From assembly GCA_032358255.1 (NCBI GenBank), contig JAULBX010017192.1, positions 1-64,000 of the forward strand: DNA of 64,000 bases, written 5' to 3'. The position numbers and the translations under genes are program-made. This DNA is from Heterotrichella gracilis (lineage: Eukaryota; Sar; Xanthophyceae; Tribonematales; Xanthonemataceae). Below the pieces are notes generated by a model. The model saw only the letters and a program-made list of their open reading frames with translations. It was not told where the DNA came from and did no database searches. The number at the start of each line of letters is the position of its first letter. Within the stretch, counting starts at the first letter, position 1. Positions 5,867 to 11,796 of this stretch are shown in pieces.

Positions 5867-8800
5867 TTACGCCTTTTGCTTCATCCCCAGGTCCACCTTG
5901 GGCACGCCTCCCTCACCCCGCTCGGCCACGCTGTACCCAGGCACAGTCTGGTGCGCCTGCCCCGTGTAGTGCGTGTGCAGCAGCTTGTGCGCCACCCCAC
6001 CCCCAGGCTCCCCCAGGAAGGACGCGTACAGCTGCTGCACCGACTTGTTCTCGTGCGACTTGCGCACCGCCTGCGCCTCGTCTATAGCGTATACCGATGC
6101 CATGCGCTTGAGCACCGCCAGGGGGTCGGAGGTCTTGGGCTGGCCGCCGCCACCAATGCAGCCTGTGAGGGAGGGGTGGTCGCTAGGTATTCATATTTTT
6201 CAATGAGATGAAACTGTTGGTTGGCATGCTGATTCCAGATGCGGGTGCAACGCATGGTGTCCAGGCTGGCGCCAGCAGGCTGGAGGTGTGTCCATGTGGG
6301 TGAGTGCCTGCTCCTCCCAGTGCGCTCACCTCCCGGACAGGCCATGACCTCCACAAAGTCGTAGTGCACCTCCCCCGCCATCATGCGCTGCAGCACGTGG
6401 CGCGCGTTGCCCACGCCGGACACCACGGCGATGCGCAGCTCGCGATCGATGCCGCTGCGCAAGGAGAGAGAAACACATTTGAAAATCAAATACAGGAAGC
6501 ACCACCAAAGTGGTGCGCAAGCATTCTCACACCACTGGCAACTAGGGGCGGATACTTTCAAAACACCATGTGGGGCACTGAGGGCGACACCAGCATGCAT
6601 CATCACCAGGCCGATGCACCCCCCCCCCCCCCCCTACCTTTCCGCCTCCTTGAGCGTCAGCGTTGCCTCCTTCACCCCCTTGAGGCCACGCGTTGCCTCC
6701 AGGCGCACAGCGGGCAGCGGGGTGGCGGTCAGCAGTTGGTGGGCGGTGCGCACTGCAGCCTCCATCACGCCGCCTGCGGGGTGGTGGGGTGGTGGGCTCA
6801 GCATTTGAACAGCTGGAACATTGAACACAGGATCTGCAGATCCCAGCAACGGCCTTTGCCTCCCACCCTTCTTACCACCGCCACCACCACCAGGCACCCA
6901 CCTGTTGCCCCAAACAGCACCGCCGCCCCACTCCCCTCCCCCAGCGGGTCGTCAAACGCCTCCTCAGGCAGCGAGGCCAGCGGAATGCGCTTGTGCCGCA
7001 GCATGGCGCCCAGCTCGCGCGTGGTGAGCACATAGTCAACGTCGCGCCCGCCTGGAGGGGAGGGCAGGGGGGATGCGGGGTCAGCCTCAGTGGTGCCTTG
7101 AATGCCGCCTGTCGCTACGTGTTGCCGTGCCGTCAGTGCAGTGCAGTGCAGTGGTTGGCGGTGGCACGCTGGCTGATGATGCAGGTTGCGTCATGCAGTG
7201 AGTGTGGTGCATGAGTGGCATGTGTATGGAACTCCCTCCTTTTGCGCGCATGGTCAAGCACCCACCTCCTGGTAAACAAGAGTTTTAATATAGATTTGGG
7301 TTCATGCCAGCTTCCCACCCCTACTCTCTCCAAATCTGTCGCACCTGCTGACGACATCTCCGGTCGCGCCGCCTCGTGCTTCTTTGCCGTGCATGGCATG
7401 ATGGACACCATGACAATGTCCTCGGGGGGCACGCCCAGGCGCTGGGATAGGTAGGTCTTGGACAGGGCGCCAAGCATCATCTGGACAGGGGAGGAGGTCA
7501 GGAGGGAGCAATACGCATGGAAACCTCAGCGGCAGCGGATGTGCAGGGATTCACATCCAGGATGAACCCTTCATTGATAACCGAATGGCGAACCAGGGCA
7601 ATCAACAGCAAGTTTGGCCCAACCTCTAATTCCCTGCCTGAGTGCCTCTGCCATTTTAAACCCTTACCAAACCCTACCAATACCCAGCTCCTGATCTGCC
7701 ATTTTAAACCCTTATCAAACCCTACCCAATACCCTACCCGGCCCCTGGCGCTTCCCACCTGTGGCGACTTGCACGTAGACAGGTTTGGTATGAGCTCTGG
7801 GTACGACTTCTCCACCAGGTTCACCCACGCAGGGCAGCAGGAGGTGAACATGGGCAGGGGGCCAGGGGGGTGGGGACCGGTGGGGGAGGAGCCTGCAGGA
7901 GGGAGGGGAGTGTGTGGGGGGCAGGGGCATAGGGGTGGCGATGCCAAATGGGGAAAGTGGGGGACTAAAAGCTGCACTGTAGGGCATGTGGCGTGCGCGC
8001 AGGTGCAAGCAAGGGGCCTTTACACACATGGTGTGCGCAGGGTGTTGCATCCCATGACCAGTCAATTGCGCACACCCAACTGCAAAAGACAACGCAATCG
8101 CCCATACACTCCAGGGCACTATCATAAACCCAACGCTCCTCCCTTCCCCCCACCCACCGCCAACCCCCCTGTCCCCCCACCCACCCCATGCCGCCCTGAG
8201 CCTCTGAATGAGCTCCGTGCCCTCCTCCATGATGGTCACATCGGCGCTGAAGTTTGTGTCGTACACGTGGCGGAAGCCGAGCGCGCGCTGCGCTGACACC
8301 AGCTGTCCGGTGGTGATGGAGCCGGGGGCCAGGCCAACCTGCGGGGGGAGGAGTACGCGGGTGTGTGGGCGGGCCATGCGGTGTGGCAAGTGGCGCTGGC
8401 TTGCAAGGGATGCGCGTGCGTGTGCATATGAGTGACCGCAAGAGGAGGCTGGCTGCGCATGCCACGCTACACCCTGTATGGTCATCGTACCAGTTCAAGT
8501 CAAAGCCACATGCCTCATCACATGCATAGCCTCATGCCCAACCGCATGCATGCATCTCACATGCACACCTCACCATGCCCTTCACACGCGGATCACACCC
8601 AGTACGCCGCCGCCACCACATGCTCAACCTCCCTCTCTCCATGCTGCCATCGCCCCCCGCCCCCACCCCCCTGTGAACACACACCGGCCTGTGGCAATGC
8701 ACCCCCCTCAACCCCACCTCCCCGCCACCCTCACCTCCTCCCCAATTGCCACCCTGACAGCCGGTGCCGTCTGCGCCACCACCACCTTGCGACCTGACTC

Positions 8801-11796: not shown

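Follow-up and report, generated by a model that had tools for sequence, protein, structure and literature searches.

Long [FeFe]-hydrogenases described from green algae include UbHydA2 of Uronema belkae (Alavi et al. 2023, PMC10744039) and CvHydA1 of Chlorella variabilis NC64A (PMC10744039, PMC3897525), the latter an algal M3 type like the enzyme reported here. In the part of PMC10744039 available to us, these are the two algal M3 enzymes that have been assayed as protein, and neither used the photosynthetic ferredoxin PetF in vitro. UbHydA2 was active (2097 umol H2 per mg per min), PetF-driven activity being absent, and CvHydA1 did not use plant-type ferredoxins; the electron donor of the Chlorella long hydrogenase is called an open question there. 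CrHydA1 and the other M1-type HydA enzymes have the same catalytic domain as the long enzymes and lack the four accessory clusters. The coexistence of a long and a short enzyme was published for Uronema in 2023 (PMC10744039), and the Leontynka paper of 2026 calls the coexistence of HydA-L and HydA-S ancestral for Chlorophyceae (PMC12924338). As far as the available sections of that paper go, HydA-L of Leontynka and of other Chlorophyceae carries F-clusters and coexists in one species with a short HydA, as is the case here, whereas Leontynka is non-photosynthetic and the present assembly contains an rbcS gene. Chlorella differs in that two long enzymes have been reported (PMC3897525) and the M1 type was not identified, according to the portion of PMC10744039 at hand.

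We analyzed a window of 64,000 nucleotides (the whole stretch of DNA examined) from an assembly of 68.5 Mb in 903 contigs. It holds the gene of a long hydrogenase and, together with a short enzyme on another contig, is a solid further example of the pairing known from a few green algae, and no new kind of enzyme.

Gene structure and cofactor ligands of the long hydrogenase

The gene lies on the minus strand, with its ATG at 11796 and its stop codon ending at 5867 in a spliced model. Splicing, as inferred from the DNA, gives 14 exons and 694 residues with the frame open throughout, and the introns are GT-AG in 13 of 13 cases. An earlier note on this DNA had given the same start, end and strand (5867..11796), which match the model exactly, and its 14 exons were reproduced in the prediction. 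The exons are as follows.

Exon 1, 11646..11796, minus strand: presequence, residues 1-50, probable organelle targeting peptide (GT-AG model, composition)
Exon 2, 10928..11064, minus strand: end of the presequence and start of the [2Fe-2S] domain; Fer2_4 at residues 68-143
Exon 3, 10485..10574, minus strand: Cys101, Cys113 and Cys116, [2Fe-2S] ligands
Exon 4, 10117..10263, minus strand: Cys129 (fourth [2Fe-2S] ligand) and the His161/Cys165/168/174 [4Fe-4S] site; NADH-G_4Fe-4S_3
Exon 5, 9865..9930, minus strand: linker
Exon 6, 9136..9385, minus strand: Cys225/228/231/235 and Cys268/271/274/278, two ferredoxin-like [4Fe-4S] motifs
Exon 7, 8735..8847, minus strand: start of the H-cluster domain; Fe_hyd_lg_C at residues 301-602
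Exon 8, 8185..8338, minus strand: H-cluster domain
Exon 9, 7759..7892, minus strand: TSCCPAW, the L1 motif (Cys388, Cys389)
Exon 10, 7345..7480, minus strand: MPCTAKKHE, the L2 motif (Cys444)
Exon 11, 6902..7051, minus strand: H-cluster domain
Exon 12, 6638..6773, minus strand: H-cluster domain
Exon 13, 6330..6454, minus strand: first part of the L3 motif (Cys594), ending at intron CPG^G, phase 1
Exon 14, 5867..6162, minus strand: remainder of L3 (Cys598), small-subunit-like C-terminal domain (Fe_hyd_SSU) and stop codon

The Pfam matches of the translated protein are far beyond chance (Fe_hyd_lg_C, 9.2e-94; Fe_hyd_SSU, 3.6e-22; Fer2_4, 6.4e-20; NADH-G_4Fe-4S_3, 3.4e-13), and several Fer4 models match as well. 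All 16 accessory ligands align with those of CpI, UbHydA2 and the HydA proteins of T. kivui and A. woodii. The H-cluster ligands are Cys389, Cys444, Cys594 and Cys598; the L1, L2 and L3 motifs are complete, and both L1 cysteines (Cys388 and Cys389) are present. The predicted protein is thus an M3-type [FeFe]-hydrogenase with ligands for four accessory Fe-S clusters and the H-cluster; the M1 type (HydA-S) is defined by the absence of an accessory cluster domain, and Pfam finds such domains here. The alignment confirms the ligand numbering of the earlier note (Cys101/113/116/129, His161, Cys165/168/174), and the reading given there, that of an algal [FeFe]-hydrogenase whose four-cluster relay is complete, is borne out by the ligands, the Pfam matches and the trees.

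Compared with CpI of Clostridium pasteurianum, the 16 accessory and 4 H-cluster ligands correspond one to one, whereas the sequences are 45% identical over the catalytic domain and 28% over the N-terminal one, and the linker lengths differ. The ligand spacing had been described as equal to that of CpI, which holds inside each cluster but not for the linkers between clusters: the numbering offset is 67 up to Cys174, 78 for Cys225-Cys278, 89 for Cys389 and Cys444, and 95 for Cys594 and Cys598. The accessory cluster set is also that of the HydA subunit of bacterial electron-bifurcating HydABC (PDB 8a6t and 7q4v, which we take to be the T. kivui and A. woodii proteins), and phmmer against the PDB gave its top scores, 528 and 482 bits, to HydABC-type HydA compared with about 420 for CpI chains. 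The term CpI-like therefore applies to the ligand spacing only, similarity as scored by phmmer being higher to HydABC-type HydA. UbHydA2 has domains and ligands identical in kind and shares 64% of residues over the catalytic domain and 46% over the N-terminal one. It differs by long insertions at three places where the present enzyme has none: ahead of the inner [4Fe-4S] pair, ahead of L1 and behind L2.

The window also carries the following features.

4098-4283, plus strand: peptide deformylase exon (PF01327, 1.2e-11)
23428-23712, plus strand: LanC-like protein exon (PF05147, 1.9e-05)
30823-31020, plus strand: glycyl-tRNA synthetase beta subunit exon (PF02092, 3e-09)
52270-52899, minus strand: RanBP-type Zn-finger (PF00641, 1.9e-07)
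56687-57432, plus strand: repeated CxxC-type segments (KVCKRCGSEKPADQFSRNKSNSDG and similar)

The stretch around the RanBP-type Zn-finger is oddly composed, the 6.4-kb piece 51201-57600 showing the lowest correlation of nine window pieces (0.83), and the sole Pfam signal of the CxxC repeat is a sub-threshold Stc1 match (0.0057).

The short hydrogenase and the other genes of the assembly

Fe_hyd matches lie on three contigs of the assembly: C173, which is that of the window, C629 and C112, the last being separate from the long enzyme. The match on C629 (76500-86000, with exons between 3722 and about 6840 of that piece) is a short hydrogenase of eight exons and 503 residues, in a model that was built by hand with a start codon of our choosing. 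The best PDB match of its protein is chain 4r0v, an Fe-hydrogenase that we take to be the Chlamydomonas enzyme. A C-x2-C-x2-C-x3-C or [2Fe-2S] pattern is absent from every frame of these 9.5 kb, a search that would miss motifs split by introns, and two patterns of the His-Cys3 type occur, both beside stop codons and downstream of the short gene. The gene appears to be M1-type with the H-cluster only. The presequence contains LQLCAAA, and CrHydA1 has NVACAAA in the alignment; the common Cys-Ala-Ala-Ala stretch presumably lies at the plastid cleavage site. The short enzyme also has an unusual Cys-containing C-terminal tail that reaches about 50 residues further than CrHydA1 and UbHydA1 in the alignment. 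The earlier note's interpretation was incomplete in that the same assembly encodes a short HydA, which the window by itself could not reveal.

HydG-like exons were found on C698, and HydE-like and HydF-like exons stand in order on C444, an arrangement consistent with an algal HydEF fusion. A multi-exon PFO gene lies on C93, with weaker PFO matches in long frames on C83. Maturase and PFO matches were counted exon by exon, none being above the whole-family cut-off. The single match to the RuBisCO small subunit (rbcS) in the assembly, on C125, has a translation that, judged by eye, we take to be a green algal protein; on its sequence, this gene marks the source as a green alga. A search for rbcL did not turn up that gene.

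To judge whether these genes belong to one genome, tetranucleotide profiles were compared with that of the window, whose own leave-one-out spread is 0.91-0.96 for 10-kb, 0.84-0.96 for 6.5-kb and 0.75-0.94 for 3.2-kb pieces. Two C629 pieces correlate at 0.93 and 0.92. This is within the spread of the window, and the presence of the long and the short hydrogenase in one alga is therefore well supported. The values are 0.91 for C112, 0.91 for C420 and 0.85 for C903. The HydE/F (0.82), PFO (0.75) and HydG (0.73) pieces, which are rich in telomere-like words, fall under all window pieces of like size, so an origin of the maturase and PFO pieces in the same genome is only likely. No 31-mers are common to the window and the compared pieces (C629, C112, C420, C903 and the maturase and PFO pieces).

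Two readings that would deny the long gene its place as an algal hydrogenase can be weighed on these data. The Fe_hyd_lg_C family takes in Nar1/Narf too, so the protein might be a Nar1/Narf-type Fe-S protein and not a hydrogenase; the four H-cluster cysteines, both L1 cysteines, the full L1-L3 set and the HydE/F/G-type exons in the same assembly argue against this reading, to which we give a negligible probability. The other is that the gene was recently acquired from bacteria or is a contaminant. The assembly does include bacterial-looking contigs (C442 and C111, with 38-39% GC and uninterrupted 51-kDa frames), and the sequenced culture was therefore probably not axenic. However, the long gene has 13 GT-AG introns, its body correlates with the rest of the window at 0.945 in base words, and its protein falls within the algal clade (100/99). 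Bacterial origin or contamination is ruled out by the introns, the base-word profile and the tree, and we hold it to be extremely improbable.

Evolutionary relationships of the long and short enzymes

Scanning genome contigs yielded at least 588 relatives confirmed by tblastn; we retained the best 80 and extracted one protein per locus, cut at the first Met, which may shorten some. In a viral collection, five stretches matched a pattern, none of them coding for a relative. CpI-query loci were added from 12 of those genomes (23 places, three without a usable frame, 8 new after deduplication), and a second homologue was added in three loci, for a total of 91 bacterial rows. The careful tree of the catalytic domain holds 35 rows picked by us out of 99, and that of the N-terminal domain 31 of 90 rows, with UbHydA2 as the only other algal long sequence included.

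The 35-row catalytic tree unites the five algal enzymes (100/99) and, within them, sets the two long ones (99/93) apart from the three short ones (99/96); the 99-row quick tree gives SH-aLRT values of 97, 95 and 94 for the same three groups. In the 31-row N-terminal tree, the long enzyme groups with UbHydA2 (98/95). The earlier note had proposed separate phylogenies of the two domains as a check; both algal domains group with UbHydA2, and neither tree fixes their deeper place among the bacteria. These groupings suggest that the long enzyme is HydA-L, a relative and probable orthologue of UbHydA2. A recent or lineage-specific duplication giving the long and short enzymes was rejected (p-AU 3e-05; catalytic domain, 35 rows).

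As to the place of the algal clade among the bacteria, the nodes around it are unsupported in the catalytic trees, and neither domain singles out a bacterial sister, HydABC-type HydA included. CpI as sister of the algae received p-AU values of 0.51 (99 rows) and 0.16 (35 rows) for the catalytic domain and 0.44 (90 rows) for the N-terminal domain; the 99-row catalytic tree with CpI held to the algae had a likelihood 0.52 log units higher, and CpI is sister to the algae at 79/84, on a very long branch, in the 31-row N-terminal tree. We dropped the claim that CpI is excluded as sister, since the topology tests do not reject it. The column of residue 389, the second L1 cysteine, has Ser (TSCSP) in 68 of the 91 bacterial rows and Cys in the other 23; it is Cys in CpI and in all five algal enzymes aligned.

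When the algal N-terminal domains were held with their neighbours in the catalytic tree, p-AU was 0.486 (90 rows) and 0.057 (31 rows). The converse constraint, with the algal catalytic domains held with seven neighbours from the N-terminal tree, was rejected (p-AU 0.00016) and forced two separate row sets together: in the catalytic tree, L058b shares a set with L058, L066, L042, L062 and L072, whereas the other six neighbours share one with L070 and L092, and the constraint left out all of these additional rows. A conflict between the two domains is unsupported by the former values, and the latter test is not clean for the algal place. The C629 short enzyme stands outside the Uronema-Chlamydomonas pair (99/89), but the alternatives, at p-AU 0.07 and 0.09 (35 rows), are not rejected, and a dating of the short enzyme before the Uronema-Chlamydomonas split was dropped.

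An intron at CPG^G, phase 1, is found at the same codon and phase at the end of exon 13 in the long gene and in the C629 short gene, where it is one of seven. This shared intron is weak evidence for one intron-bearing ancestor of the long and short genes. The locus is relevant to whether accessory domains were ancestral in green algae, a question that the earlier note had raised and that the available part of PMC12924338 already answers for Chlorophyceae.

Proposed electron donor, location and role

In the long enzyme, electrons would enter via the surface clusters and reach the H-cluster by way of the inner pair of [4Fe-4S] clusters; there protons would be reduced, or H2 taken up in the reverse reaction, under hypoxia. 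The protein would be targeted to an organelle, the mitochondrion being the likelier one. PetF would not be its donor but would serve the short hydrogenase of the same assembly. We consider it very likely that the protein is an M3-type HydA-L related to UbHydA2, organellar, with the mitochondrion as the more likely site, and supplied by a donor other than PetF.

The suggestion of the earlier note that the enzyme accepts electrons differently from the short algal enzymes is probable, given the results for CvHydA1 and UbHydA2 in vitro and an Arg at the site of Lys396. Lys396 and Arg171 of CrHydA1 are named for contact with FDX1/PetF in the accessible text of PMC12924338. The Lys396 position holds Lys in all three short algal enzymes aligned, and Arg (present protein) or Gln (UbHydA2) in the long ones; among bacterial enzymes, HydA of T. 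kivui has Lys there and HydA1 of A. woodii has Arg. As a pointer to the partner this residue is only suggestive, because bacterial enzymes vary there and the comparison covered one of the two named residues, Lys396.

According to the same portion of PMC12924338, HydA-L is often, not universally, predicted to be mitochondrial in core chlorophytes, and both maturases are generally predicted to be so; we therefore place the long enzyme as HydA-L, organellar and more likely mitochondrial. Its first 45 residues contain 3 Arg, no Lys, no Asp or Glu and 19 Ser, Thr or Ala. The best 18-residue hydrophobic moment is 0.41 for its presequence and as high as 0.47 for that of C629, and this measure thus does not separate the two. 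It is also conceivable, though we think it rather unlikely, that the same enzyme resides in the plastid and is fed by another carrier there, such as a ferredoxin, either bacterial in type or a minor one of plant type, that acts downstream of PFO. A PFO gene is present in the assembly. In Chlorella variabilis, whose M3 enzyme did not use plant-type ferredoxins, H2 production nevertheless depends on light and is sensitive to inhibitors (PMC10744039, in part). Against the plastid stand the frequent mitochondrial prediction for core chlorophyte HydA-L and a long presequence without the Cys-Ala-Ala-Ala stretch common to the C629 enzyme and CrHydA1.

An improbable alternative is an NADH-linked enzyme, with HydA-L docked, like HydA in bacterial HydABC, onto a module resembling NuoE/NuoF (complex I 24/51-kDa type), in which the C420 paralogue may take part. 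A HydB/NuoF-like gene was found by tblastn in 74 of the 80 best bacterial loci, anywhere in the fetched stretch (54 of 80 by motif count); four of the six loci without a match have less than 1.8 kb upstream, and two have none despite upstream DNA. However, the 80 loci were picked by similarity to the query, and gene order in bacteria is no direct evidence on algae. The assembly contains two 51-kDa (NuoF-like) genes with introns: a canonical one on C903, with mitochondrial complex I flavoprotein 1 as best PDB match and a TAA within one match that falls at an exon end, and a divergent one on C420, which has 46-77% identity to the C903 gene product in the individual segments and retains the NADH/FMN region and the CGQCTPCREG motif. 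C420 is nevertheless closer to mitochondrial complex I 51-kDa chains (485 bits) than to HydB (229-235); its best PDB matches are the 51-kDa chains 8e73 and 7a23, which we take to be from plant complex I. There is one clear intron-containing NuoE-like gene (C45), with a weak match on C749 (9.5e-4), and the 51-kDa genes are off the hydrogenase contig. Among the matches listed, no NuoF-like or NuoE-like gene lies beside hydA on C173, such matches being on other contigs; in this the long enzyme differs from HydA of HydABC, with no HydB or HydC gene next to it. The long hydrogenase of Nyctotherus is fused to 24- and 51-kDa modules, but these are of bacterial, not mitochondrial, origin in the section of PMC2216082 available.

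Because the bacterial kin of HydA-L are mostly beside NuoF-like genes and such a fusion exists in Nyctotherus, the C420 protein may, as a speculation, be named a candidate partner of HydA-L; a duplicate complex I subunit or a gene of a second organism explains C420 as well. A limited search of titles and abstract starts found no literature on such a 51-kDa partner in green algae. We regard as even less probable, and indeed as a long shot, the full proposal, in which HydA-L would be a mitochondrial hydrogenase linked to NADH and would retain the partner arrangement of HydABC, with the diverged duplicate of the complex I 51-kDa subunit (C420) as diaphorase. If true, this would account for the failure of long algal hydrogenases to use PetF. 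In C420 the assembly offers a candidate electron partner for them.

Our preferred reading is that of an organellar HydA-L with a donor other than PetF, whose predicted role would be hypoxic redox balance in the organelle, more likely the mitochondrion. The assembly provides a genomic case, with exon structure, of long and short [FeFe]-hydrogenases together in a green alga, which helps to date the loss of the accessory clusters.
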